From Lentisphaerota bacterium (GTDB lineage: Bacteria; Verrucomicrobiota; Lentisphaeria; Victivallales; Victivallaceae), in NCBI GenBank assembly GCA_015061815.1, contig SUVW01000002.1:1-64000 (forward strand): DNA of 64,000 nucleotides, written 5' to 3'. The notes below the pieces were generated by a model. That model saw nothing but the letters and a program-made list of their open reading frames with translations. It was not told the origin of the DNA and did no database searches. Positions 5,813-57,981 of this stretch are shown one piece after another. Numbering within the stretch: the stretch's first letter is position 1; every line of letters starts with the position of its first letter. Position numbers and translations under genes: made by a program.

Positions 5813-6691
5813 TTACAAATCAACTTTTATTTTTTTATTTTTACGGAATGCACCGGGAGAAACTCCAAGTTTGTGCCGGAATTGCCTGCCGAAATAATTG
5901 GAATCGGAAAATCCGACTTCGGCAGCAATTTCCGTCAAACTTTTGCCGGTGGTCTGCAATAAGATCACTGCTTCTGAAATCCGCAGCTGCAGAGCATATT
6001 GCAGCGGAGAACACCCTACTGCGGTTAAAAAATTCCGCTGCAATGTCGCCCGCGACATACCTGAAGCACGGCACACGGCGGCAATTGTGAAATTTTCACG
6101 ATAATGCTTGTTGATAAAGGTAATAGCTTTGGAAATATAATTATAAGTGCTATTCTGCTTTTTCTCCTTTTCCGAGAAAAGCCTTGACAAATATGCCAAT
6201 ATTTCAATAAATATTCCCAAACAGCAAAACAGATGACCCGGAATCTGATTGATACTTTCCTGATGCAGCCGGGCTGCCAACTCCAGAATGAAGGCAAAAG
6301 AATCATCTTCCGCATGGAGTTGCGGATACAATTCATCTTCTCCGGAATGGAGGAAAAACAGTTTATTGAATCCCGGTTGCTGGGCGGCATCCAATAGCGG
6401 CATAGGCAGTGCTTCGGGAATAAAGAGAATATTAACCAGAGAAAAATCGGGCGAAACATTCCGGAATTCATGATTGAAATTCCGGGGAACAATAAAAATA
6501 TCATTCTTTCTGACTGTATTCATCCTGCCATTACAGAAATGCTGAGCTTCACCACGGAAAATCAGTACGATTTCCACAAATTCGTGCGTATGCGGTTTCG
6601 TGTTTTCCTGCGGTTCGCTCCAGTAAACATATAACGGGAAGTTGGTAATAGTACCAGCTGATACGATTGCCAGAGTTTTATTTTCCTGCAT
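5813..6691 (-). CDS. AraC-family transcriptional regulator
   Basis: The N-terminal 150 residues form a cupin-like sensing domain (HTHEFVEIVLIFRGEAQHF). The C-terminal 100 residues are the paired AraC helix-turn-helix domain (FTIAAVCRASGMSRATLQRNF, then SLTEIAAEVGFSDSNYFGRQFRHKLGVSPGAFR). Such proteins usually bind a sugar or glycan fragment and activate a nearby catabolic operon. GGAGGG stands nine bases before ATG 6691. It is divergent from the glycan operon starting at 6890, with 198 bases between the two starts, so it is the natural candidate regulator of that operon. The repeated motif TTGAGCAAATCKTTAA found upstream of 6890 and 11544 may be its binding site. Confidence 0.9.
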   Translation of the reverse strand: MQENKTLAIVSAGTITNFPLYVYWSEPQENTKPHTHEFVEIVLIFRGEAQHFCNGRMNTVRKNDIFIVPRNFNHEFRNVSPDFSLVNILFIPEALPMPLLDAAQQPGFNKLFFLHSGEDELYPQLHAEDDSFAFILELAARLHQESINQIPGHLFCCLGIFIEILAYLSRLFSEKEKKQNSTYNYISKAITFINKHYRENFTIAAVCRASGMSRATLQRNFLTAVGCSPLQYALQLRISEAVILLQTTGKSLTEIAAEVGFSDSNYFGRQFRHKLGVSPGAFRKNKKIKVDL

Positions 6692-6848
6692 TTTTAACCC
6701 TCCAGACCGGTTTGATTATTAAGATAATTGCCGAAATCAGAATTTTCAATATGAGAAATATAAAAAAAACAGTAATATGAGCGTTTTATGCTTCTAAATA
6801 AGCCTTTTGTGATGGATTTAAGATATTATTATGCTAAATTAAAGAATA

Positions 6849-6864
6849 TTGAGCAAATCTTTAA
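6849..6864 (+). promoter_or_regulatory. Candidate AraC-type operator, copy 1
   Basis: TTGAGCAAATCTTTAA lies 25 bases before the esterase start. The same 16-mer with one change occurs at 11447-11462. A tentative promoter lies just upstream (TTGTGA at 6807-6812, 17-base spacer, TATGCT at 6830-6835). The link to the divergent AraC gene is inferred. Confidence 0.4.
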
Positions 6865-6889
6865 TTGAGTGTGCAAAGCAGGTACGGAT

Positions 6890-8923
6890 ATGAAGTATAT
6901 TCTGGAAATAATTGTTGTTTTCAATGTATTGCTTTTATCGGCAGGGATAAAAGTGAGCGTTGTTTCAGATCGTGGATCAAGACAGTACCGTTGCGGAGAA
7001 CAGGCGGTTTTTACCATTTCCGTAAAAGAAAAAAATATCCCGCTTGAATACGGAGTTGTAAAAGCCGTTTTATCCAATGGCACAACGATCCATGAAACCC
7101 GGATCATAGATTTAAGTCAGTATGAAAATGATAAAATCCGGATCAACGGAACTTCGGTTCAGCCGGATCTTTTGCGTTGTGATGTAAGCTATACCCATAA
7201 CGGCAAGGAGATCAAAAGTTCTTCCTGTGTGATATTTGATCCTGAAAAAATAATCCCGGCTTTACCCGAACCGGATGATTTCAAATCTTTCTGGGATGAT
7301 GCGTTATTGGAAAGCCGTACTTTCCCGGCTGTTAAAACCGAATTTACAGGAAGAAACAGCCTCGGATGCCGAATTTACAATATAACAATTCCAGTTCCCG
7401 GCGGCGTGGTCAGAGGCTTTTTATCCTATCCGCCGGAAAATGGAAAATATCCGGTGATAATTCAGGTTCCGGGGGCGGGAGCGGGAATGAGTGGTAATCC
7501 GGCTTCCGACAAGGAATTTATCTGGCTGTCTTTGAATGTTCATCAATACGATCCGGAAAATTGTCAGCAGGAGTATAAAAAACTTTGTGCGGCATCTCAT
7601 GCAAAAATTGCATACAGCGGCTGGGGGGCCTATATTTACGACGGAGCAGAATATCGCAAGAATTCTTATTATTACCGCGTTCTGCTGGGAATATCACGGG
7701 CGGTTGATTATGTTGCATCCCTGCCGGAAGCGATTCCGGAAAAAATCGGCTATTGCGGGGTAAGTCAGGGCGGTGGCATCGGCTTGATGCTGGCTGGTTT
7801 GAATAAAAAAATATCAGCAATAACAGTCGGGATACCGGCATTTTGCGACCATGGCGCTTTTCAGAAAAAACGGGCGGAGGCATGGCCTGAATATGGAAAA
7901 TTTTTCCGCAGTAAAAATAAACAATCATTTTCTGAGGTCTTGTATTTTGATGCGGCGAATTTTTCCCGCTACATTAATTGCCCGGTACGGATAACCGCCG
8001 GAATGAAAGATACTCTTTGTCCTTTACCGGCGGTGCTTGCCGCCTGGTCAGTTATCCCTTCTTGCGACAAACGGTTATTTATGGAACCGGAAACGGCTCA
8101 TGGAACCGGTTCGGCATTTCGTGATTCTGTAAATTGGCTCAAATCAACCTTGAAAGGAGAAAAAAATATGTCTTTGCAATTCGACTTACCGGTAACGGCT
8201 GATCAGTGGAACGGTTTTGACCGTTATAATTTCCGCATCGCTGATTGTGATGCATGGATCGTGAAACCCAAAGTGCCTGCACCGGGTAATAAATGGATGT
8301 GGTGCATGGAGTTTCCTGATGCATTCACTCCACGCTGCGGAGCATTGCAATTGCTGGAAAAAGGCTATTATATTGCCCATATCGTTGTCGGCAACACCTA
8401 CGGCTGCCCGGCGGCATTAAAACAATTTGAAAAATTTTATGAATTTGCCGTGAAAAGTGGTCTGTCTTCCAGAGTCGTCCTGCAGGGTTTAAGCCGAGGC
8501 GGACTTTATGCCTACCGTTTTGCCGAAATCGATCCGGACAGAATTTCAGTTATTTACGGAGATCATCCTGTTTGCGATATAAAGAGCTGGCCCGGCGGCA
8601 AAGGTAAAGGCAGCGGCAGTCAGAAAGACTGGTTGAATCTGATAAAGCTCTACGGTTTCAAAGATGAAGCTGAAGCACTTGCCTGGCAGGGAAATCCAGT
8701 GGATAGACTGCAGAAACTTGCTGATGCAGGCGTTAAAATAATCCATGTAGTCGGTGACAGCGACAGCGTCGTCCCTTACGAAGAAAACTCACTGCTGGTT
8801 GAAAAACGTTATCCGGCAATGGGCGGAGAATTCAAAATTATTCTGAAAAAAGGTATCGACCATCATCCGCACGGTTTGGATGATCCATCTGAAGTAGTGG
8901 ATTTTATACTGAAAAATAATTAA
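6890..8923 (+). CDS. Secreted double esterase: AXE1-type acetyl esterase fused to a second alpha/beta hydrolase
   Basis: A signal peptide (MKYILEIIVVFNVLLLSAG) is followed by an immunoglobulin-like region. Residues 120-420 are an acetyl xylan esterase/cephalosporin deacetylase-type hydrolase with nucleophile motif GVSQGGG, acid in AGMKDT and base in ETAHGTG. Residues 427-678 are a second hydrolase with GLSRGG, GDSDSVVP and DHHPHG. Both halves have complete triads. Such enzymes remove acetyl or other ester groups from polysaccharides so that glycosidases can act. ATG 6890 has AGCAGG seven bases upstream; an in-frame GTG at 6869 is less likely. At the junction an SD (AAAGGAG, 8153-8159) precedes an in-frame ATG at 8168, so the second half may also be made alone. 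It is the first gene of the plus-strand operon. Confidence 0.82.
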   Translation: MKYILEIIVVFNVLLLSAGIKVSVVSDRGSRQYRCGEQAVFTISVKEKNIPLEYGVVKAVLSNGTTIHETRIIDLSQYENDKIRINGTSVQPDLLRCDVSYTHNGKEIKSSSCVIFDPEKIIPALPEPDDFKSFWDDALLESRTFPAVKTEFTGRNSLGCRIYNITIPVPGGVVRGFLSYPPENGKYPVIIQVPGAGAGMSGNPASDKEFIWLSLNVHQYDPENCQQEYKKLCAASHAKIAYSGWGAYIYDGAEYRKNSYYYRVLLGISRAVDYVASLPEAIPEKIGYCGVSQGGGIGLMLAGLNKKISAITVGIPAFCDHGAFQKKRAEAWPEYGKFFRSKNKQSFSEVLYFDAANFSRYINCPVRITAGMKDTLCPLPAVLAAWSVIPSCDKRLFMEPETAHGTGSAFRDSVNWLKSTLKGEKNMSLQFDLPVTADQWNGFDRYNFRIADCDAWIVKPKVPAPGNKWMWCMEFPDAFTPRCGALQLLEKGYYIAHIVVGNTYGCPAALKQFEKFYEFAVKSGLSSRVVLQGLSRGGLYAYRFAEIDPDRISVIYGDHPVCDIKSWPGGKGKGSGSQKDWLNLIKLYGFKDEAEALAWQGNPVDRLQKLADAGVKIIHVVGDSDSVVPYEENSLLVEKRYPAMGGEFKIILKKGIDHHPHGLDDPSEVVDFILKNN

Positions 8924-46500: not shown

Positions 46501-48123
46501 TCACATCGCTGTTGTCTCCTTGGGGATAAATTTTTCAGCGGCATCGGCCTTTTCAGCATTCATTTCCGCTTCGAGAATGCTGACCAGTGCCGGCGGCAGA
46601 TTACGGCGGTTGTTGTCGATGATCCCCTGCTTGATACGGTTGTATGAGGGCAGGACATTGCGCTTGACATCTTTATTCCTCTGCACATAGCTGGAGTGGA
46701 TGTAACGCGCCAGCCGTTCATTGGCCACTGCCGCATCCCGGTTTCCGTAAATCAAATTGATTATCGCTCGCTGTATAAGACCGCTGATGACTGAACTGGC
46801 TTTTTCCACGTCTGCATCCCGCACATCTTCGGCGAATTCGACCATAACAAATTCATCCAGATTGTTGCGTTTCTGCGGCCCGTCGATCTTCACCAGCCGG
46901 TCAAAAAATTCCTGCGCTTTGGTTATATTGCCGTTGATGTAGATCAACGGGATGGCATCTTTAAGATAGTTGATCTTGGCACTGCGGAAACTGTTGCCGG
47001 CTCCGCTGCCGGAATATTCAGCTTCGCCGACCTCAAAGGCTGCGTATGCCGAATCCGCCAGATTCAAGTTGGGAACCGATTGTATGCTTCTGCCATCCTC
47101 GCCGAGCATCAGGATACGGCCGCTGCGGAATGCCGCCTGCAAACTGTTGGAAACAATACGCACACAGTTGATATCCGGTGTCCGGCCGCCGGCTGAACTC
47201 TTTTCCACTCCCAGCGTGGCCCAGTAGATCGCCTGCGATTCCGGCACACGCCAATCCATTTTACCGTATTTCCGGTCGATCTCCACCATCTTTTTCGGAT
47301 CGAGTTTCAATTTGCTGCGAAGCAATTCCGCCCGGAAAAACGCATCCAGCGCAGCAAATTCATCCCGGGAGAGATAGAGCCGCAACTGTTCCGGCAACGC
47401 CGCTTTGACCGGCGTGCGGAAAGCTGTGAACAACTCATCATAATTATTGTATCCGGCCTTTTTCACCGCTTCCCAGAAAGAAGAATTTTCCGGATACTTT
47501 TTAAGGAACTCATCTTTCCCGGCCGGAGCAGCCGCCAGCAATTCCCAATCCGGCGTCGTGCTGCCCAGAATATTGTTCATCTGGATCGCCATCTGATTTT
47601 TATAATACAAGTTGGCATCATCCATCAGATTGCCGAGTTTATGCAGATAGATCCATGACAACTCCCGGAAAAGCAGCGGATCATCCGGATTGTAAAGCAT
47701 CGCCTTGTCCCGGATCAGCCGGATACCTTCGTTGACCCAGTACCAGCGGTCCTCGTAATCTGAACTGGTTACGGAAATATTGTACGCCAGATTCCATGCC
47801 AGATACGCCGTACCGCCGGAATAATTCGGCTGCAAATCAGTTATCCAGCGCGCCAGCTGCACCATCTCAAAGTAATTTTTCTTGCCCTTGAGCATCTCCG
47901 ACCGCAGCCACAATACATCCGCCAGCAACCCCCGGAAACTGCCCAGAGCCACTGTCGTGAATACCACCGCCGGCGGCGCATCATTCACCGCTCCGGAAAA
48001 ACGCAGCTGCTCTTCATTGATCACCCGGTCAAGTTTATACTCCATCCGGCGGATACCGAAAAGTGCCGCCGCTGTAACCAACAGCAGCACCAAAATCAAT
48101 GTCATATTGCGGAATCTGTTCAT
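46501..48123 (-). CDS. Membrane-anchored helical repeat protein linked to an ABC exporter
   Basis: One N-terminal membrane helix (MTLILVLLLVTAAALFGI) anchors a 500-residue helical protein facing the periplasm. Early conserved-looking blocks are GSFRGLLADVLWLRSEMLKGKKNYFEMVQLARWITDLQP and WNLAYNISV, followed by TPR-like helices. I do not know a named function; similar proteins occur next to ABC-2 transporters in PVC bacteria. The start overlaps the permease stop (ATGA), so it is coupled to the exporter and may be its accessory or substrate adaptor. Confidence 0.6.
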   Translation of the reverse strand: MNRFRNMTLILVLLLVTAAALFGIRRMEYKLDRVINEEQLRFSGAVNDAPPAVVFTTVALGSFRGLLADVLWLRSEMLKGKKNYFEMVQLARWITDLQPNYSGGTAYLAWNLAYNISVTSSDYEDRWYWVNEGIRLIRDKAMLYNPDDPLLFRELSWIYLHKLGNLMDDANLYYKNQMAIQMNNILGSTTPDWELLAAAPAGKDEFLKKYPENSSFWEAVKKAGYNNYDELFTAFRTPVKAALPEQLRLYLSRDEFAALDAFFRAELLRSKLKLDPKKMVEIDRKYGKMDWRVPESQAIYWATLGVEKSSAGGRTPDINCVRIVSNSLQAAFRSGRILMLGEDGRSIQSVPNLNLADSAYAAFEVGEAEYSGSGAGNSFRSAKINYLKDAIPLIYINGNITKAQEFFDRLVKIDGPQKRNNLDEFVMVEFAEDVRDADVEKASSVISGLIQRAIINLIYGNRDAAVANERLARYIHSSYVQRNKDVKRNVLPSYNRIKQGIIDNNRRNLPPALVSILEAEMNAEKADAAEKFIPKETTAM

Positions 48124-49547
48124 TTTCTCACCGCCGCTCCCAATTCACGCCGCCGGTACAGCCAGATGCCGAAAAGGAACAAAGGCACACCACGCAGCAG
48201 GAAATATTTGAAAAAGAGTTCTCCAATATAGGAAAATTCGATCAGATCTCCGCCGGACAGCAGATCGGTCACATCAAAATGCTGCAGCGGAATAACCACC
48301 AGAAGCAAAAGCTGCGCCAGAAATTGTCCCGCATGATCCCAGGCCGATTCAAGGAAAAATGAGGAATCTGTCAACACCATCGACAACGCTCCGAACAACA
48401 GATAACTGACCACCATAAATACCGCCGTCGGCATCGTCAGAAAACCACCGAATGCACACGCCAGACCGGATAAAAGCAGCAGTTGTATCGTCATCACCAC
48501 TATCGCCCGCAGATAATTCATCTCAAAACTGCAGACCGGGATCAGCAATTTCGGTCCGTCGGCAGTCTGATAGTAATGTTTGCCGCCCATGCGGTCAAAA
48601 TTAGCAGCTTCCACCAGCACCGTACCGTCTTTGGTGATCACCCCTTTGGGAAGTTCCTTCTCGTGAAAAACCCCGGTAAAATGAGTTTCCGGTCCATTGG
48701 TCAGAGCAAAAGGATAAAGCGCGTAACTGCCATCTTCCCCGGCATGAGGCATAAACACCGCCCACTGAATGCTGCTTTCACGCTGATCTTCGCTGGAAAC
48801 TTTGCCCAGATAAGGACGGTAACGCAGGATCAATGAAGTATCATTCAATTCTTCGGGTACATTTTCAAACACCCAGCGGTATGCTTCGCCGCTTTGAACT
48901 TCAATGGGAAGTTTGTCGATCTGCTCTTTGAGTTCATCGCGCATCTTGAGCAATTCCGAATCCGGCAGCTGCTTGCCCTCTTTCTGCAGTTCACGGACCC
49001 GCCGCTGAACCGCAAATTCTGCAGCCCTTTCCGGGTCCCGGGCTTTGGGCATATAACTGCGGCGGCCGACCAGCACCTGCGAACGGATACGCTCTTTTTC
49101 CGATTTGGCATTCTCCCGCGCCAGCTGACGATCCGCCAGTGCGCCCTCTTCCCCGGCACTCTGATAACGGAACATGACCATCGCATACACCGCTGCCGCC
49201 GATATCAGCAGCAACACGATATTTATCATATTGATCCCGGTCCATTTGCCCAGCCAGATCGTGATCCGCGAAACCGGTTTGGAAACCACCATGTGTATCT
49301 GGTAACTGTCTATGTCATGCGACATGATGTAACAGCCCAGCCACAACGATGACAGAGTCAGAATAATACTCACTGCCCACAAGCTGTACAGAAGTGACAC
49401 CCGGATCAGATCTTCCGGTTTTCCCACTGATACTGATACCGGTATGACGGTGACACACAACAGCAAAAGCAGCAGCAGCAATTGAAAAATATGTGACCGC
49501 ATCGCATTGCGGAAAGTCAAAGCAACTATGGCTCTAAACGCTTTCAT
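48120..49547 (-). CDS. ABC-2 type transporter permease
   Basis: The membrane part has an N-terminal helix (FQLLLLLLLLCVTVIPV), two further helices around residues 50-135 and four at the C-terminus. Between them lies a soluble domain of about 220 residues (AGEEGALADRQLAREN ... FDRMGGKHYYQ), large for this family and presumably outside the membrane. The motif SHDIDSYQIHMVVSKPVSR is the coupling-helix region usual in ABC-2 permeases. TAATG links it to the preceding ATPase gene. The exported substrate is unknown. Confidence 0.82.
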   Translation of the reverse strand: MKAFRAIVALTFRNAMRSHIFQLLLLLLLLCVTVIPVSVSVGKPEDLIRVSLLYSLWAVSIILTLSSLWLGCYIMSHDIDSYQIHMVVSKPVSRITIWLGKWTGINMINIVLLLISAAAVYAMVMFRYQSAGEEGALADRQLARENAKSEKERIRSQVLVGRRSYMPKARDPERAAEFAVQRRVRELQKEGKQLPDSELLKMRDELKEQIDKLPIEVQSGEAYRWVFENVPEELNDTSLILRYRPYLGKVSSEDQRESSIQWAVFMPHAGEDGSYALYPFALTNGPETHFTGVFHEKELPKGVITKDGTVLVEAANFDRMGGKHYYQTADGPKLLIPVCSFEMNYLRAIVVMTIQLLLLSGLACAFGGFLTMPTAVFMVVSYLLFGALSMVLTDSSFFLESAWDHAGQFLAQLLLLVVIPLQHFDVTDLLSGGDLIEFSYIGELFFKYFLLRGVPLFLFGIWLYRRRELGAAVRK

Positions 49548-50737
49548 TATTCACCTGATTTACCGCCCAGCAGCGAATCCAGTTTGTCATTGGCCCGGCG
49601 GATATTATCTGCCGCCTCCTCTGACCGGCTCTTCGCCGTTTCTGCTGCCGCCGCTGCGGTTTGTTTAGTTTCCAGTACTGAAGCGATCTTCTCATCGGCA
49701 CTTTCCACCGCTGCTGCCGGAGAATCTTCCGGGCCGGCGGCCGGAGCTGCAGCACCGGCATTTTCCTGCATAAGCGAATTGAGTACCGCATTTTTATCCG
49801 ACTTATCCACGCTGTCGCCCACCAGATATTCCGCAATGCCGCCACCGCCGGCAACTCCGGCAGTTTCGACACTTTCACGTCTGGCTTGAGAGATAACATC
49901 GAGGAAGAATTCTTCCAGCGTCCGGCGGGGATGATCAACATTGAATTGTTCCCCCTGCAGATTTTCCCGGAGCAGGCCCAGCAGTTTATCCATCGTTTCT
50001 TTCGGCAGCTGCGGAGTCAATATCCGGGTCTTGTCACTGACGGTCAGCAGATCATCCAACGCGCCCTCGGCCCGGATCTTGCCGCCGTACAGAATTATCA
50101 CCCGGTCGCAGATATCTTCCACATCGCTCAACAGGTGGCTGGTGATAAGAACGGTTTTGCCCCGCTTTTTCAATGCCAGTATCAAATCTTTCACTTCCCG
50201 GCATCCCAACGGATCAAGTCCGCTGGTCGGTTCGTCAAGGATCAGAAACGCCGGATCATTGATCATCGCCTGGGCCAGACCGATGCGCCGCGCCATACCT
50301 TTGGAAAATTCCCCCACCCGGCGGTAACGCGCATGGGCCAACCCGACCATATCCAACAGCTGATCGATCCGCCGCTTCCGGTCTTCAGCCGAAATATTGA
50401 AAAGTGAACCGAAGAAGTTCAATGTCTCTTCCGCTGTCAGAAATTTATAAAGATAAGACTCTTCCGGCAGATAACCGATCTCCCGCTTGGTTTCCACTTC
50501 CCGGGGGGATTTACCGAAAACGGTAACTTTGCCGCCGGTGGGATAGAGCAGCCCCAGAAGCATCTTCACGGTTGTGGATTTCCCCGAACCATTGGGGCCG
50601 AGCAAACCGACCACCTCTCCCGGTTTGATCTCAAAATCAATACCGTTGACCGCCCGGGCTTTCGGCCGCTGCCAGAAATCCCGGAACATTTTGGTCAAGC
50701 CGACAGCCTGTACCACCGGTTCATAATTGCGTTCCAT
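49547..50737 (-). CDS. ABC transporter ATPase with long acidic/alanine-rich tail
   Basis: Residues 1-220 form the nucleotide-binding domain: Walker A GLLGPNGSGKSTT, Q-loop region GYLPEESYLY, signature FSKGMARRIGLAQAM and Walker B FLILDEPTSGLD, with the H-loop in LITSHL. After a CcmA-like C-terminal region the protein carries an extra tail of about 110 residues rich in Ala and Glu (AGAAAPAAGPEDSPAAA, then a helical KSRSEEAADNIRRAND), not part of the usual family. It powers the permease encoded next and begins 12 bases after the P-type ATPase stop. Confidence 0.88.
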   Translation of the reverse strand: MERNYEPVVQAVGLTKMFRDFWQRPKARAVNGIDFEIKPGEVVGLLGPNGSGKSTTVKMLLGLLYPTGGKVTVFGKSPREVETKREIGYLPEESYLYKFLTAEETLNFFGSLFNISAEDRKRRIDQLLDMVGLAHARYRRVGEFSKGMARRIGLAQAMINDPAFLILDEPTSGLDPLGCREVKDLILALKKRGKTVLITSHLLSDVEDICDRVIILYGGKIRAEGALDDLLTVSDKTRILTPQLPKETMDKLLGLLRENLQGEQFNVDHPRRTLEEFFLDVISQARRESVETAGVAGGGGIAEYLVGDSVDKSDKNAVLNSLMQENAGAAAPAAGPEDSPAAAVESADEKIASVLETKQTAAAAAETAKSRSEEAADNIRRANDKLDSLLGGKSGE

Positions 50738-50749
50738 CTGTAAATCCTC

Positions 50750-52822
50750 TTACGACAATTGTTTTTCTGAATCAGCTTTATCCGCCAATGTCAGTTCTTC
50801 ACCGGTACGCACCAGACGCGCACTGTTGAATACGATCACCAGCGTACTGCCGGCATGGATCACTGCCGCCCAGATCGGAGTCATCAATCCGACAATGGAA
50901 AGAATCATACCGCCAAAGACAAACAACATACCGAAAATCAAATTCTGATTGATCACCACCTGGGATTTTTTCGCCAGGAAAATCAACATCGCTATCCGGC
51001 GCAAATCGTTGGTCATCAACGCTACTGAAGCACTGTTGATCGCAATATCACTGCCGATAGCTCCCATCGCGATACCCAAATCACCGGCTGCCAGTGCCGG
51101 AGCATCATTCACACCGTCACCGACCACTGCAACCGTATGGTCGCGTTTGACATTTTCCACAAATTCGACTTTGGTTTCCGGCAGACAACCGCTTTTGAAC
51201 TCATCGATATTGAGTTGACCGGCGACCTCTTCGGCGACCGACTGACGGTCACCGGTGACCATCGCGCAATAACGGACTCCGAGGCGGCGCAAATCTGAAA
51301 GCAGTACCTGGGATTCTTTACGTATTTTATCGCGGAAACCGATCCAGCCGATAACTTTGTCATTTTTGCTGACATAAACCACACTCATACCGGCAGCTTC
51401 ATCCGGGTCGCTCTCCGGCAGGATCAAACCGTTTTCCCGCATCCAGTTGGCCCGGCCGACCCGGCAGAGTTCACCGGCGGCGGTACCGGAAACACCTTTA
51501 CCGTGTTCCTCGGAGAAACCGGATACTTCATCCAATTCCAATTCGGCTTCCTGCGCCAGTTTGATGATCGCCAAAGCTGTCGGGTGGTTGCTCAACCGTT
51601 CCACCGATGCCGCGCAACGGAGCAATTCCGCCGGAGAAACTCCTTCAACCCCCTGCAGCTTGACCACCGAAAGCAAACCGTCTGTCAACGTACCGGTTTT
51701 GTCAAAGACAAATGCCGAAATCCGGCTGGCCAGTTCCAGATGGCTGATATTTTTGATAAAAATGCCCAAACGCGCTGCCGCCGCCACTGCCGCAACCACC
51801 GCAGTCGGAGTTGCCAGCACCACTGCACAGGGACAGGCAATGACCAGAAACGCGATAACCGAATCCATATCCCGGCTGAACCACCAGGTTATCCAGGCGA
51901 TCATCAACACCGTCGGGGTGTAATATCCGGCGTAGCGGTCAATGATCCGGACTACCGGAGTACGGCTGGCTTCCGCCTGCATGATCATCTCTTTGACCTT
52001 GCCCAAAGTGGTGTCGCCGCCGACCTTGGTCACGACGACATCCACTGCACCGGTCAGGTTCTGCGTACCGGCAAAGACATCATCTCCGGAAACTTTTTCC
52101 ACCGGCACGGATTCACCGGTAATGGAGGCCTGATTGACGGTACTTTCGCCGGAAATGATCTGGCCGTCCACCGGGAAATTTTCTCCCGGACGGATACGGA
52201 TGCGGTCACCGACATGCAGATCCTGCGCGGCAACTTCACGCTCTTTGCCGTCTTCGCCGATCAGATTGGCGGTATTTGGAGTAAGTTTGATCAACTCCTC
52301 GATCGACCGCTGCGCACCGCTGGCGGTACGGGTTTCGATGATAATGGTCACCAGCAGGAAAAATGCGATGATCCCGGCAGTCTGGAAATCAGCTTTCACC
52401 AAAGCCGCCAGAATCGCCAGAGCCACCAGTTCATTCATGTAAACTTTGCCTTTGACCAGATCTTTGACCGCCGTGATGATGATCGGCAGAGCCAGAATAA
52501 ATGCTCCGAAAAGAGCCGACATGTAAGAAGCGAACTGCTGTTCCGGCAGCAACGCTTCCAGAATAAAGCTGTTGGCGGTCAGAATACCGCCGACCAGTGC
52601 GAAAAAGACCCGCCCCATACTGCGGTCATGACCGACACCGCCCTCGGCTTTGTGATCGTGTCCGCAAATACAGGTGCTGTCCTCTTTATGGTGATGATCG
52701 TGACCGCAATTGCAGTGATCGTGTTCATGGTCATGATGGTCGTGACCGCAATTGCAGTGATCGTGTTCGTGATCATGGCCGCAGGCGCAGCCATGCTGAT
52801 GTTCGTGGATATTTTCGCTCAT
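50750..52822 (-). CDS. Heavy-metal P1B-type ATPase with His/Cys-rich N-terminus
   Basis: This pump uses ATP to move a soft or transition metal across the membrane. The core shows TGES in the actuator domain, the metal-binding CPC in ACPCAVVLATP (about residue 330), the phosphorylated Asp in DKTGTLT (about residue 374), HP in SNHPTALA and GDGVNDAPAL. Instead of a heavy-metal-associated fold, the first 65 residues are a His/Cys-rich tract with two tandem 14-residue units (residues 18-31 and 32-45). CPC with a His-rich tail suits Zn, Cd or Co export, or Cu. It follows the SPFH gene by two bases, so they form one operon. Confidence 0.93.
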   Translation of the reverse strand: MSENIHEHQHGCACGHDHEHDHCNCGHDHHDHEHDHCNCGHDHHHKEDSTCICGHDHKAEGGVGHDRSMGRVFFALVGGILTANSFILEALLPEQQFASYMSALFGAFILALPIIITAVKDLVKGKVYMNELVALAILAALVKADFQTAGIIAFFLLVTIIIETRTASGAQRSIEELIKLTPNTANLIGEDGKEREVAAQDLHVGDRIRIRPGENFPVDGQIISGESTVNQASITGESVPVEKVSGDDVFAGTQNLTGAVDVVVTKVGGDTTLGKVKEMIMQAEASRTPVVRIIDRYAGYYTPTVLMIAWITWWFSRDMDSVIAFLVIACPCAVVLATPTAVVAAVAAAARLGIFIKNISHLELASRISAFVFDKTGTLTDGLLSVVKLQGVEGVSPAELLRCAASVERLSNHPTALAIIKLAQEAELELDEVSGFSEEHGKGVSGTAAGELCRVGRANWMRENGLILPESDPDEAAGMSVVYVSKNDKVIGWIGFRDKIRKESQVLLSDLRRLGVRYCAMVTGDRQSVAEEVAGQLNIDEFKSGCLPETKVEFVENVKRDHTVAVVGDGVNDAPALAAGDLGIAMGAIGSDIAINSASVALMTNDLRRIAMLIFLAKKSQVVINQNLIFGMLFVFGGMILSIVGLMTPIWAAVIHAGSTLVIVFNSARLVRTGEELTLADKADSEKQLS
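52688..52771 (-). repeat. Tandem 42-bp repeat coding the metal-binding tail
   Basis: Two adjacent 42-bp units encode HEHDHCNCGHDHHD and HEHDHCNCGHDHHH. The DNA copies differ at few positions, which points to recent duplication. Confidence 0.85.
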
Positions 52823-52824
52823 GA

Positions 52825-53964
52825 TTATTTACCCTCCCCCGCCCCGTCGGCAGCGGTGGCTGTTTTCGGTTCACGGTTAAGTTTGAGCCAGAGGGACTTG
52901 CCGCTTCCCTGGGGGCCGAGTACGAATTTGTCACCGTCTTTATAAACGTCAGCGGCGACCTCTTTAAGCATTTCAGTATAAAGAGCCATCGTCAAAGTAC
53001 CCGGATTGTTCCGGTGCTGTTCATAAATTTTATTGAAGTGATCGCTCTGCGCTTCCAGCTGGGCAGTCACCCGGTTTTTGTATGCTTCGGCGGCAGCGAT
53101 GATCGCCGCGCTCCGGGAAACTGCTTCATTTTCCTGTGTGACCTTGTAAGCCAGTGCCTCGTTGCGCAGTGCGGAACTGGCATTGGCCGCCGAAGTGACC
53201 TCTTCAAATGCCTCTTTGGTCTTGACCGGCGGATAAATGCGGTTCAAGCCGACATTTTCGATAACTATACCGCAATCATGGGCTGCCACCAGTTTGGCGA
53301 ATTCCCTGCGGACATCGTCGCTGTATTTGCTCTGTCCGGCATAGAGGATATCATTGACTTCAGACTGTGCCGTTACCGAAATCACCGCCCGGCGGAAAAG
53401 ATTGCGCAGAAACGTCACCGGACCGCGAGTACCGGTCATGCCGTCGGCATCTTTGAACTCATCATCCGGAGTGACTTTGCCATTCTCCACCGGGAACAGG
53501 GGAGTAAGCAGATTGCAGTAATACTTCTCCGGATTATCCACCCGGTAGGCGATCGTCCACGAACTGTGAACGATATTGGCATCACCGGTCATCACATAGG
53601 TATCCCGGCCGGGTTCCAGAGAATCCCCGCCGCCACTGGGCGTGGCTGCTGCCGCGAAATCCACTTCCAGAAGCTGCTGACTGGTCTGTACCCGGATAAA
53701 CTGATTGACCGGGAAAGGCAGAAACCAGTGCCCGCCGGTGGTGTAAGTGCCGGAGATCCGGCCGAAACGGGTCACGATCACCGCCTGCTGCGGTTCCACT
53801 GAAAAGTATCCTGCGCCGCTGACAAAGTAGATCAATGTGGCGATAATGCCGATCAACAGCAGTAAAAACGCCACGCGCAGACTTTTGGCCAAAGACTTCA
53901 ACCCGGCATCATAACGGCCGCTGCGGTCGAATTCATTGGTTATTACACTCTTGTTTTCCTCCAT
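52825..53964 (-). CDS. SPFH-domain protein (HflK-like)
   Basis: One membrane helix (LRVAFLLLLIGIIATLIYFV) is followed by an SPFH/band-7 domain: VEPQQAVIVTRFGRI, GGHWFLPFPVNQFIRV, GDANIVHSSWTIAYRV and LRNLFRRAVISV. A helical coiled-coil region rich in Ala and Glu follows (AFEEVTSAANASSALRNEAL). In other bacteria HflK and HflC form a cage that limits the FtsH protease at the membrane. Here it is encoded with two more SPFH proteins and a metal pump, so it may organise a membrane microdomain around the pump. Confidence 0.85.
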   Translation of the reverse strand: MEENKSVITNEFDRSGRYDAGLKSLAKSLRVAFLLLLIGIIATLIYFVSGAGYFSVEPQQAVIVTRFGRISGTYTTGGHWFLPFPVNQFIRVQTSQQLLEVDFAAAATPSGGGDSLEPGRDTYVMTGDANIVHSSWTIAYRVDNPEKYYCNLLTPLFPVENGKVTPDDEFKDADGMTGTRGPVTFLRNLFRRAVISVTAQSEVNDILYAGQSKYSDDVRREFAKLVAAHDCGIVIENVGLNRIYPPVKTKEAFEEVTSAANASSALRNEALAYKVTQENEAVSRSAAIIAAAEAYKNRVTAQLEAQSDHFNKIYEQHRNNPGTLTMALYTEMLKEVAADVYKDGDKFVLGPQGSGKSLWLKLNREPKTATAADGAGEGK

Positions 53965-53976
53965 GATCGCTCCTTA

Positions 53977-54906
53977 TTACTTGGTTGCGGGAGCCTGGGC
54001 TCCGGGGATCACAGTTCCGGGTTTCAACAAATCAAAAGGCGGCATATCGGTATTGACCACCATTGTGGTACGGCCGCGCATCATCACCCGCAGAGCTTCG
54101 ATCTTGCGGAGAAATTCGGCCAGTTCCGGATCTTTGGCGAATTCTTTGTAAAATTTGGCCGCTTCCGCATCTCCCTGGGCGCGCAATTTCAAAGCATCAG
54201 CTTCAGCGCGGGCGATCTTCTGATCCCGTTCCAGATTGGCTTCGACCCGGATCTTTTCCGCTTCGCTCTTTCCTTTGGAAATATTTTCATCCGCAAAGCG
54301 TTTGCGTTCAGCGATCATGCGTTCAAAGACCTTTTCCGTAACCGTTTTCGGCACGCCGAGACTGTTGATGCCGACATCGACGATCTCAATACCGAATGAG
54401 GAAGTATCCCGGGTGAGAGTATTTTTGATCTCGCTCATTATCTCATTGAGCTTCAACATTTTGCCATCAGCATTGACGACCTGGTCGAATTTCCGTTTCC
54501 CGAATGCGGTATTTTTCGCGCTCCGCATCAGAGTATTGAGTACATCTTCGGCATTGGTCACATCTTTGAGCTTGCTGAAAAAAGTTTCAACTGCACTGAT
54601 ACGGTAATTCACATAAATACCGACGATGATATTATGTCCATCCTCGGTCACGGTCTCTTCCAGTTTGCCGCTGCTGCCCTCATAACAACGGATGCGTTTG
54701 TCAAAGCGGTAGACCTTCTGAAACGGGAAAGGCCAGCGGAAGTGCAATCCGGCCTCTTCGACCACTGACGGTCTGCCGAAGGTCGTAAGTACTGCCACTT
54801 CGGTCTGATTAAGCTGAAATGAAAATACCGCCGTAAGCAAGATCAATGCCACGATCAGACCGAGGAACATCGTCGGCCAATGTTTGAAAAAATTTCCCTT
54901 TGCCAT
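53977..54906 (-). CDS. SPFH-domain protein (HflC-like)
   Basis: A single N-terminal helix (MFLGLIVALILLTAVFSF) leads into the SPFH domain: LNQTEVAVLTTFGRPSVV, AGLHFRWPFPFQKVYRFDKR and EDGHNIIVGIYVNYRI. Then come DVGINSLGVPKTVTEKVFERM and the long helix ERKRFADENISKGKSEAEKI, a strong HflC feature. The last segment, ALRVMMRGRTTMVVNTDMPPFDLL, is also typical of HflC. It lies between the other two SPFH genes with 12 and 35 bases of spacing. Confidence 0.88.
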   Translation of the reverse strand: MAKGNFFKHWPTMFLGLIVALILLTAVFSFQLNQTEVAVLTTFGRPSVVEEAGLHFRWPFPFQKVYRFDKRIRCYEGSSGKLEETVTEDGHNIIVGIYVNYRISAVETFFSKLKDVTNAEDVLNTLMRSAKNTAFGKRKFDQVVNADGKMLKLNEIMSEIKNTLTRDTSSFGIEIVDVGINSLGVPKTVTEKVFERMIAERKRFADENISKGKSEAEKIRVEANLERDQKIARAEADALKLRAQGDAEAAKFYKEFAKDPELAEFLRKIEALRVMMRGRTTMVVNTDMPPFDLLKPGTVIPGAQAPATK

Positions 54907-54941
54907 AATTTTATTCTGCCTCCAAATTATATTTTTTATTG

Positions 54942-56888
54942 TTAATTCTTATCGCTTAATTCAGACACGTCAAGATTCACCAGATCCAGTCTTTCGTTTT
55001 TCTCAAAATTCATCTGGTAAACCATATCTTTGATATCAGCCGGCACCACATACTTCTGTACAGCCGCGCCGTCACTCTCCAGAGCTTCCATTTTGGCATT
55101 GAGCATAAACATCTGCGGCATGCTGCGGAAGGCTTTCAACTGTTCACTGAAGCGTTCACTTTCAGCTTCGGCGATGACTTTGGCACTCTCTGCCCGGCTC
55201 AATGCCGATTTTTCGATACTGAATGCCGCTGCCTCTGCCGCCGGCAGAACCGTATTGCGGTAGGCTTGAGCTTTCAACGTTTCCGTCTGCCGTTCCTCGA
55301 TGGATGAGATCACATTCTGATAGGCCGGGGCGACATTTTCCACCGGCGGGTGAGCATCCATGATCGCCACGCGGATGATCTCGACTCCCAGTTCGTTCTG
55401 ATCGGCAAGCTTCTGCAAATTCTGCTGCAGAACCGCTTCGGCCCGTCCCCGGCCGGAAGCCATGAAATCTTCCATCGTCGTACCGGCCAGAAATTCAACA
55501 ACTGCCTGTTCACCAAGTTTTTTCATCACTGCATCCGGATCAGCATTGCCGTAAGCATAACGGACAACTCCATCCTCACGGATGCGGTACTCCACCGGAA
55601 TGGCCATGTTGACAAATGAAATACCTGAACTCTCCGTATTCAAAGCGGATGCCCCATCTTTGCCGCGACCGGTGGTCACTTCCGGTTCTTTGACTGCCAC
55701 GACAAACGGATCTTTGGCCACGCCGTGTTCATTGGTCCACAAAACCACCGGAGAAGCTGAACGCTCTTTGGCAGTTTCCATGCTCTCACCGATAACCATC
55801 CGCTTCACTTCAGTGCAGCTGAATTGACGGATCGTGCCGAAAGGATAAGGAAGTGTCCAGTAAATCCCCGGAGTAAGCACCTCATCAGTAAGGGCTTTCC
55901 CGAATTGTTCACGGATGCCGACATTGTTGGGACCAACTTCATGAACCGCTGTAAATCCCCAGAAAAGCACCGCCCAGAGCAGCAGCACCGGAAAAAACGA
56001 TCTTTCGATAAATCCGTATATCCATGTCCCGGAAACTTTGAAACCGAATTGATAATCCAGTGCCGAAGCGATATTCCGCAACACCCCGCCGGGTTCGGTA
56101 AAGAGTGCCAGAAGCTGGCTTTCAAAAACCGGACGGCTCTCGCCGATGGTGCGCGGACGGTAAAATTCTATAACTGAATTGACGATAAATTCACCGCCCA
56201 GAATAACGAATATCCAGAAAAACACCTTCGCAACGATCGGATCAGCTCCCACGATGTTGTTGCTGTAAAGCAGCGCGCATACCGCAGATGCCCCCAGAGT
56301 GAGAAAACCCATCATCAGCCATGCCCCCACCGGACGAAGCCAACGGAATCCGGCCATACGCGACTGACCGACCATGAAGGCCCCGGAAAGGACACTTACC
56401 ATCATCAAAACCGCCGAAATCAATGCCGTATGTACCGGAGAACCGGTCATTACCACCCCGGCATCCTTGCGGAGATTCCAGGTATCGACATTGTTCCACA
56501 GCATCAGAGCGATCACTGCCATCGCCGCCACTGCGATCACAAACGGGGCGAAACGGGTATAATTGGCAAAACTCCGGCCGGCAGTGAAGCGGACATCTTC
56601 TTCCACATTCAAAGCACGGCTTTCCATCCGTTTGGCCAGCAGGCGTTTCTCCTCCTCCTCGCGCTGGACGGCTCCGTAGAGTATCCCGTAAATAAACGAC
56701 ACTGCTGAAAACAACAGAGCCAATGCAAACGGCACTGCCGCCAGAGAGAGGACATCCCCACCCCGCTTGGCTGCCAGTATCAGCACTGCGACCAGCAAGA
56801 TCAATGAACCGATCGCACCGATAACTGACAATTTAGTCAGCAGCCGCGCCCGGTCATCCGTACGTTTGTATTCTTCTGTTTTGTCCAA
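54942..56888 (-). CDS. Large SPFH protein with multi-helix membrane domain (HflK-like)
   Basis: This 648-residue protein is about twice the size of normal HflK. The first 300 residues hold about seven hydrophobic helices (for example SVIGAIGSLILLVAVLILAA, FVIAVAAMAVIALML, HTALISAVLMMVSVLSGAFM, SFFPVLLLWAVLFWGF). The SPFH domain begins at HEVGPNNVGIREQFGK and continues to LGVEIIRVAIMDAHPPVENV, followed by a helical stalk (SIEKSALSRAESAKVIAEAESERF). It is the first gene of the operon that runs on to the P-type ATPase and probably the ABC exporter. Confidence 0.82.
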   Translation of the reverse strand: MDKTEEYKRTDDRARLLTKLSVIGAIGSLILLVAVLILAAKRGGDVLSLAAVPFALALLFSAVSFIYGILYGAVQREEEEKRLLAKRMESRALNVEEDVRFTAGRSFANYTRFAPFVIAVAAMAVIALMLWNNVDTWNLRKDAGVVMTGSPVHTALISAVLMMVSVLSGAFMVGQSRMAGFRWLRPVGAWLMMGFLTLGASAVCALLYSNNIVGADPIVAKVFFWIFVILGGEFIVNSVIEFYRPRTIGESRPVFESQLLALFTEPGGVLRNIASALDYQFGFKVSGTWIYGFIERSFFPVLLLWAVLFWGFTAVHEVGPNNVGIREQFGKALTDEVLTPGIYWTLPYPFGTIRQFSCTEVKRMVIGESMETAKERSASPVVLWTNEHGVAKDPFVVAVKEPEVTTGRGKDGASALNTESSGISFVNMAIPVEYRIREDGVVRYAYGNADPDAVMKKLGEQAVVEFLAGTTMEDFMASGRGRAEAVLQQNLQKLADQNELGVEIIRVAIMDAHPPVENVAPAYQNVISSIEERQTETLKAQAYRNTVLPAAEAAAFSIEKSALSRAESAKVIAEAESERFSEQLKAFRSMPQMFMLNAKMEALESDGAAVQKYVVPADIKDMVYQMNFEKNERLDLVNLDVSELSDKN

Positions 56889-57022
56889 TTTTTCACCTTT
56901 CTATTGGTTTGACAAATTTTTACTGCAACTTAACCTTAATATATACTATTACACCGTCAAAGGTCTTTTTTCAACCCCTGACGGTAAAAATTATGCAATT
57001 ATCATTCCGGCAAAGCGGGGTT

Positions 57023-57904
57023 TCACTTGATTTCAGTGATCGAACCGGCTTTGACAATGATCGCGCCGTTTTCTCCGAACCGGCCATCTGCCCTGCCGGA
57101 AATTTTCACCTTTTTATTCTCCATCGCCTTGAGCAGAGCCGGATCATCACTGCTGACAAAAGCCTGATTCAACCCCTCCGGAGCTGTGAGCAGCGTATAG
57201 TCGGTTTTGGGAGAACTGCTGTACTTCCATTTTACCAGAACTCCCTGCAATTCAATAACTTCCTCTTTTTCCGGTGCAAATTTTTCTTCCGCATCGGCTT
57301 TGACCTCTTCAACTGCCGGATTGACAACAGTTTTGCTTTCTTCCGGAATATTCTTTTCCTCTTTCGCCGGGCTCTGCGCTTCAACTTTCTGTGTATTTTC
57401 TTCAGCGGCGGCAGCAGTACCGGCGATATTGCCTTTTTCATCGAATTTTGCCGGATCGTAATTCACCAGAAATGATGCAGCATAAACTTTTATATCCGCT
57501 GAAGCCGGAACTTTGATCCGCACCCAGCCGTTTTTGCTGCTGCCGGTCTTTTCCACTGCGGTCCCCGCCGGAAGAGTTCCGAAACAGGGGGCTTTGGAGT
57601 CCATCGCCGAACGCATATTCAACTCTCCGGTAAGTTTGCCGTTGCGGTTGATCCGCGCTTCGGAAACATAAATGGCCAGAGTTTCCGGAGCTTCGACTTC
57701 CAGCCAGTTGCCGATGATACGGCGTATACGCAATTCCGTCTTGTCGGCGACCTTGCCGATCACCGGATGCTGAAGTCCCGGTCCCAGACGCAAATTGAGC
57801 AAATCCGCATTTACTTTGCCCGGGATCACCGGTTTTTCCGTGCCAAAAGCCGGGATACACAGGATGGAAATCATTGTCAAAACTGCAAAAAACGTCTTAT
57901 TCAT
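57023..57904 (-). CDS. Secreted protein with two SH3-type domains
   Basis: A signal peptide starts at ATG 57904 (MNKTFFAVLTMISILCIPAFG), preceded by AAGGAG; a longer frame to 57970 lacks an SD. Two bacterial SH3-like domains follow: VNADLLNLRLGPGLQHPVIGKV and LNMRSAMDSKAPCFGTLPAGT. After an acidic, Lys/Glu-rich linker (about residues 150-215) the C-terminus has a small beta-domain (LQGVLVKWKYSSSPKTDYTLL, KKVKISGRADGRFGENG). SH3b domains generally bind peptidoglycan peptides, so a cell-wall role is likely. It is divergent from the xer gene. Confidence 0.8.
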   Translation of the reverse strand: MNKTFFAVLTMISILCIPAFGTEKPVIPGKVNADLLNLRLGPGLQHPVIGKVADKTELRIRRIIGNWLEVEAPETLAIYVSEARINRNGKLTGELNMRSAMDSKAPCFGTLPAGTAVEKTGSSKNGWVRIKVPASADIKVYAASFLVNYDPAKFDEKGNIAGTAAAAEENTQKVEAQSPAKEEKNIPEESKTVVNPAVEEVKADAEEKFAPEKEEVIELQGVLVKWKYSSSPKTDYTLLTAPEGLNQAFVSSDDPALLKAMENKKVKISGRADGRFGENGAIIVKAGSITEIK

Positions 57905-57981
57905 CGCTATTTTCTCCTTTTTTGTTGCATTTTTACAAATATACAGTATTTTAATATACTTGACTAACACGTGTGGTGCAA

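Follow-up and report, generated by a model that had tools for sequence, protein, structure and literature searches.

The window analysed here is a stretch of 64,000 nucleotides from a Lentisphaerota bacterium (positions 1 to 64,000 of contig SUVW01000002.1), and the subject of this work is a run of four genes in it that code for three SPFH proteins, named SPFH1, SPFH2 and SPFH3, and a P1B-type ATPase. SPFH proteins occur in all domains of life and FtsH is their best proven client in bacteria; to our knowledge, few SPFH clients are known. The four genes, with the open reading frame (ORF) calls and other analyses on which each assignment is based, are as follows.

56888-54942, minus strand: SPFH1, 648 amino acids, TTG start, third SPFH subunit (ORF call, Pfam, hydropathy, tree)
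54906-53977, minus strand: SPFH2, 309 amino acids, one transmembrane (TM) segment, HflC-type (NCBIfam, tree)
53964-52825, minus strand: SPFH3, 379 amino acids, one TM segment, HflK-type (Pfam, NCBIfam, tree, PDB search)
52822-50750, minus strand: P1B-type ATPase of an SPFH-linked clade, 690 amino acids (Pfam, NCBIfam, motifs, tree)

An earlier note on this DNA had described three SPFH genes and a P1B pump in one run, with the pump starting two bases after the third SPFH gene, and the ORFs together with Pfam and NCBIfam agree with this: exactly two bases separate the stop of SPFH3 from the start of the pump. The Band_7 domain of Pfam was found in SPFH1, SPFH2 and SPFH3 with E values of 4.5e-10, 7.1e-30 and 2.5e-20, respectively, spanning residues 317-542 in SPFH1, and the pump matched E1-E2_ATPase (E 3.2e-52) and Hydrolase (E 2.2e-23). 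In NCBIfam, SPFH2 scored above the hflC cut-off (143.3 against 134.4) and the pump above that of the heavy-metal P-type ATPase model TIGR01525 (534 against 346), while SPFH3 (120.5) and SPFH1 (84.4) matched HflK below its cut-off of 159.4. In a sequence search of PDB, both SPFH3 (chains 7vhp, 7vhq) and SPFH1 matched HflK of E. coli, and the pump matched structures of CopA, of a CadA-type ATPase and of ZntA. Membrane segments were called from hydropathy. One hydrophobic segment each was found in SPFH2 and SPFH3 and seven in SPFH1 (residues 22-40, 46-64, 113-131, 155-173, 189-207, 218-236 and 297-315), as had been claimed for a seven-helix first SPFH protein. The seventh segment sits just ahead of the SPFH domain with a six-TM bundle N-terminal to it, and an odd number of segments in SPFH1 fits the orientation of HflK. 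SPFH proteins have been described as having one membrane segment (PMC12407830), and SPFH1 is at odds with this.

SPFH1 is present in 54 of 60 relatives and in 96 of 241 genomes of the phylum. Neighbourhoods were fetched for 91 SPFH1 loci and their ORFs were labelled with the window proteins; gene order was counted in the 78 loci that had at least 4.5 kb downstream. The order SPFH1-SPFH2-SPFH3-P1B on one strand, whose conservation the earlier note had proposed as a check, was found in 73 of these 78 loci across Verrucomicrobiota; the remaining five include two with the pump immediately upstream. Contig breaks fall within the operon in three genomes (G005, G058 and G171). A pump was taken to be of the operon type at about 430 bits or more and at least 40% identity, all other P1B pumps scoring 411 bits or less, which leaves a gap. 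By this threshold an operon-type pump is present in 94 of the 96 genomes with SPFH1 as against none of the 145 others, a count made by hand from two lists and dependent on the completeness of metagenome-assembled genomes; the sole trace among the 145 is a 123-amino-acid pump fragment at a contig end (G032). No ftsH was found in the labelled neighbourhoods of any of the SPFH loci examined, and in the window genome the single ftsH is on another contig (C4) and has no SPFH gene beside it. Thus, the SPFH genes are not associated with ftsH in most relatives, which would have told against the earlier reading, but with the pump. It was also considered that the loci without a pump might have acquired another client. 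This was rejected since in one of them (L125) a rhamnosidase-like gene comes next and there is no sign of a swap. In another (L080) the gene next to SPFH3 is a 922-amino-acid ORF (5992-8760) and not the pump; L137 is a further locus without a pump.

In the SPFH tree, SPFH1, SPFH2 and SPFH3 each recur in Verrucomicrobiota and Proteobacteria. SPFH2 of both phyla groups with HflC, which together with the NCBIfam score agrees with the middle gene being HflC-type; SPFH3 is sister to canonical HflK (support 97/95); and SPFH1, including the copies from Proteobacterial operons, makes up a third, separate clade (98/93) that belongs neither to canonical HflK nor to canonical HflC. The label HflK-like, which had been given to both the first and the third protein, therefore suits SPFH3 better, while SPFH1 is a third lineage. 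The three-subunit set is thus old and has travelled with the pump.

The operon pumps of both phyla likewise form one clade (support 100/100, recovered in 200 of 200 bootstrap trees) that is set apart from CopA, from ZntA/CadA and from other P1B pumps. By its DKTGT, HP and GDGVND motifs and the CPC in TM6 the window pump is a P1B-type ATPase. Its N-terminus is rich in His and Cys, a feature common in the genus of the window and rarer farther out. All 87 operon pumps have the phosphorylated Asp and the TM6 Pro, and the two TM6 Cys are retained in 75 and 76 of them, the variants in some lineages being VPAA, CP(I/V)A and (I/L)PCA. The position of the ZntA TM7 Lys (K693) is occupied by I, V, T or L, with Lys in 0 of 87, and the TM8 Asp of ZntA (D714), which is His in the window pump, corresponds to His in 82 of the 87 and to Gln in 4. 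The columns of the CopA TM8 Met and Ser ligands hold His and Thr in the window pump. The window pump thus lacks these metal-site residues of both P1B-2 (ZntA/CadA) and P1B-1 (CopA). The TM8 His was dropped as a unique mark of the clade because other P1B lineages have it too, and by itself it is not diagnostic. These pumps share with the ZntA/CadA and CopA exporters the P1B fold, the DKTGT, HP and GDGVND motifs and usually CPC, but they differ in being a clade of their own in which the ZntA K693 and D714 are replaced.

A second SPFH trio in one genome (G056) led to the discovery of natural fusions between SPFH domains and metal transporters. P1B-SPFH fusions were found in four genomes as single ORFs of 959-1055 amino acids with E1-E2_ATPase, Hydrolase and Band_7, and CDF-SPFH fusions (Cation_efflux and Band_7) in two genomes and one plasmid; a plasmid gene of Aquibium oceanicum is such a fusion of CDF and Band_7. 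Both kinds are new in this analysis.

L263, 1440-4454: P1B-SPFH fusion, C-terminal Band_7, SPFH genes follow
L264, 6137-9109: P1B-SPFH fusion, C-terminal Band_7, SPFH genes follow
L265, 130-3009: P1B-SPFH fusion, C-terminal Band_7
L267, 4864-8031: P1B-SPFH fusion, C-terminal Band_7, SPFH genes follow
L089, 1128-2657: CDF-SPFH fusion, then HflC and HflK genes, PPIase and a ZntA-like P1B
L266, 2683-4215 (G155): CDF-SPFH fusion, then HflC and HflK genes
L268, 9001-10548: CDF-SPFH fusion, then HflC and HflK genes, PPIase and a ZntA-like P1B

The genes downstream were checked for three of the P1B-SPFH fusions (L263, L264 and L267) and SPFH genes were present in all three. In the trees the fused pumps form a clade that sides with the other P1B pumps and is apart from the operon clade, and the SPFH parts of the fusions fall among HflK-like proteins, not with SPFH1. 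Since the fusions come from other lineages, SPFH sets have joined metal transporters repeatedly, as separate events, and by analogy the fusions support the general idea of SPFH-transporter partnership. The possibility that the six-TM bundle of SPFH1 is a diverged CDF was set aside, the hhalign probability to the CDF part being 21%; the window SPFH1 carries only Band_7, without an N-terminal Cation_efflux domain.

By annotation, four Proteobacterial plasmids (Rhizobium, Paraburkholderia, Klebsiella and Burkholderia) carry the same four genes. In Paraburkholderia the operon is preceded by a zinc ABC importer, a GTP-binding protein, which we read from its gene context as COG0523-type, and a PCu(A)C copper chaperone. 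Two plasmid matches to HflK (H1 and H10) were discarded, since each belongs to an ordinary hflK-hflC pair with no pump gene. The P. aeruginosa genes PA2439, PA2438 and PA2437 code for HflK, HflC and an HflC-family protein and lie beside PA2435, which codes for HmtA (PMC4542158). The three SPFH genes are PA14_33070, PA14_33080 and PA14_33110 (PMC9431628), and their products have been named PaFlo5-7 in a paper in which the pump is unmentioned (PMC13086221). When compared with the published loci, the window order matches the HmtA operon type HflK-HflC-SPFH-P1B. From gene order and composition, and not from the HmtA sequence, the window operon would correspond to PA2439-PA2435, where a P1B ATPase gene likewise adjoins genes for HflK, HflC and an HflC-family protein. 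Zinc depletion raises expression of the PA2439-PA2435 operon genes 5.6- to 14.4-fold (PMC4542158) and raises the proteins too (PMC11761036), the PA2439 promoter is bound by Zur when Zn is present (PMC8531726), and HmtA has been reported as a Zn/Cu importer from hypersensitivity and raised metal content (PMC10393844; PMC8456098; PMC5353632). The earlier note had called the window pump metal-exporting, which is an interpretation and not an observation. This part of it is not supported: hmtA, the nearest studied locus by gene order, is Zur-bound, raised by zinc depletion and reported to import. The two loci differ in that the first gene is Zur-bound in P. aeruginosa while the window has no clear Zur box. 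The cited papers do not treat the SPFH proteins and the pump as one complex, and in the open-licence literature on SPFH/HflK and P-type ATPases we found no description of an SPFH-pump module; 'ATPase' does not occur in the text of a paper that recognizes 12 SPFH subfamilies (PMC2636767).

As judged from gene order and trees, these results show that an HflC-type, an HflK-type and a third SPFH subunit have been co-inherited with a pump of a private clade across the phylum and into Proteobacteria. The SPFH-pump module is real, widely conserved and apparently undescribed; its parts are ordinary and their combination is unusual. Gene order, co-occurrence, the absence of a link to ftsH, the private clade and the fusions all favor the pump and not FtsH as the dedicated partner, as the earlier note had supposed. 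We therefore consider it rather probable that the operon codes for a dedicated HflKC-like SPFH-metal pump module, for which we infer complex formation, the metal and the direction of transport. In such a module the periplasmic side would carry a hetero-oligomeric belt and dome, similar to those of HflKC and made of SPFH2 and SPFH3. SPFH1 would insert into this ring, with its six-TM bundle docking to or partnering the pump within the enclosed membrane patch. The dome might then control pump stability, the lipids around the pump or the metal pool. By analogy with hmtA, the cargo is probably Zn or Cu. Uptake or starvation homeostasis seems somewhat more likely than detoxifying export because of what has been reported for hmtA in P. 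aeruginosa and because the ZntA ligands are absent; this preference is transferred knowledge. Whether HflKC-type SPFH assemblies are metal-transporter enclosures in general, with the window operon as the most widespread form and the fusions as independently evolved ones, we regard as evenly balanced. The precedent for transporters as SPFH clients is the stomatin dome, which encloses AQP1 and UT-B (PMC12407830). Flotillin-associated rhodopsin, where a bacterial SPFH gene is cotranscribed with a membrane transport protein family, is a bacterial parallel by gene order (PMC10308929).

Several observations weigh against this interpretation. The SPFH and pump genes are not always together: in genus g35 (L196-L199) SPFH1 is at another locus, SPFH2-SPFH3-pump-ABC still being together, and in one genome (G040) the pump is separate from the SPFH genes. 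In one class-level family (loci L108, L110, L112, L114, L142, L143 and L144) VPAA takes the place of the TM6 CPC and both Cys are lost. This is hard to reconcile with a standard metal site and, since the catalytic motifs are kept, the cargo of these pumps may not be a usual metal. A search upstream of SPFH1 for a Zur box gave no clear Zur palindrome. In P. aeruginosa, hmtA mRNA was not Zn-repressed in one study (PMC8531726), import by HmtA awaits confirmation (PMC10393844), and deletion of PaFlo5-7 gave mild phenotypes only (PMC13086221). The fusions, being from other lineages, are analogues and not direct proof for the window operon. An AlphaFold2 model of SPFH1 from four sequences had a pLDDT of 41 and a pTM of 0.27 and was not used. 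Finally, the window genome has no HflK or HflC outside the operon, its fourth Band_7 gene being of another type, and because the genus has no other HflK/C the SPFH set of the operon may serve FtsH there as well. Close relatives have few other Band_7 genes, and in two genomes (G040 and G054) a pair resembling HflK/C lies at another locus.

One alternative is that the SPFH set is an ordinary HflKC partner of FtsH and that the pump is only co-expressed, for example because FtsH needs zinc. That the operon carries the only HflK/C-type genes of the genus and that SPFH2 passes the HflC model fit such an explanation, and PA2437-2439 have been read as FtsH modulators (PMC11761036; PMC9431628). It is rather unlikely, however, because ftsH is at none of the loci, pump and SPFH1 co-occur almost perfectly, SPFH1 and SPFH3 score below the HflK cut-off, P1B-SPFH fusions exist, and P. 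aeruginosa has a canonical HflKC besides (PMC13086221). Flotillin-type SPFH proteins have been proposed as stabilizers or scaffolds of membrane proteins, and a membrane scaffold or chaperone, acting on lipid domain, assembly or stability and touching the pump from outside without a cage, would fit all the linkage data equally well. A comparable pairing of transporter and SPFH protein is found in flotillin-associated rhodopsin (PMC10308929). Such a scaffold is nevertheless unlikely since HflK/C-type subunits make closed or nautilus-like cages in E. coli and since the fusions tie the SPFH domain directly to a pump.

SPFH-caged metal export as the earlier note had it, with metal released into a closed periplasmic compartment, competes only with uptake in the interpretation that we prefer, and its likelihood is not to be added to those of the other alternatives. 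Most P1B ATPases export, the window pump has a His/Cys-rich cytosolic N-terminus and a ZntA-like pump accompanies the CDF-fusion modules; we find export doubtful because the gene-order match, hmtA, is a reported importer raised under Zn starvation and because none of the 87 operon pumps has the Lys or the Asp ligand of ZntA. That the neighbourhood is only an old gene order with unconnected products is very improbable. Some neighbours, namely the ABC genes, are often conserved too, but the order persists across the breadth of a phylum and recurs on plasmids from a second one, co-occurrence holds despite a patchy distribution, and SPFH-transporter fusions arose independently.

Compared with HflK-HflC-FtsH of E. 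coli, the operon has a subunit that groups with HflC and one that is sister to HflK, but it adds a third SPFH protein with seven TM segments and is linked to a P1B pump instead of ftsH. With the stomatin dome around AQP1 and UT-B the module would share the idea of a transporter ringed by SPFH proteins, but the dome is a eukaryotic homo-oligomer that encloses channels and not an ATP-driven pump. The flotillin-associated rhodopsin cluster is alike in that, by gene order, a bacterial SPFH gene accompanies a membrane transport protein; it has one flotillin and a rhodopsin, not a metal ATPase. The phylum-wide operon, the separate pump clade and the fusions to two kinds of metal transporter thus define a candidate SPFH client and suggest that bacteria may build SPFH rings around metal pumps, as is known for a protease. 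The module also offers an explanation for the role of PaFlo5-7 in P. aeruginosa and for why HmtA is said to behave differently from other P1B ATPases, and the SPFH-transporter fusions are ready constructs for structure work.

The features that flank the operon are the following.

50737-49547, minus strand: ABC-transporter ATPase next to the pump, of uncertain membership in the module (Pfam, neighbourhoods)
49547-48120, minus strand: ABC-2-type permease, 475 amino acids, beside the ABC ATPase and named from distant homologues
48123-46501, minus strand: 540-amino-acid protein of unknown family with one N-terminal TM segment, conserved with the ABC pair
56946-56974, minus strand: promoter-like element TTGAAA-N17-TAATAG upstream of SPFH1

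The ABC ATPase follows the pump in 51 of 71 loci, and in L074 the trio of ABC ATPase, permease and 540-amino-acid protein (46501-50737 in the window) is inverted. Elements resembling TTGAAA-N17-TAATAG were also seen by eye in relatives within the genus. The window genome, of 2.5 Mb, has one Fur-family gene, a second P1B pump (CopA-like) and one ABC-3 metal permease. Its closest named matches are metagenome-assembled Lentisphaeria genomes, of which two came from ruminant gut. Upstream of SPFH1, at 57023-57970, there is a gene for an SH3-domain protein that accompanies the operon only in the closest relatives.

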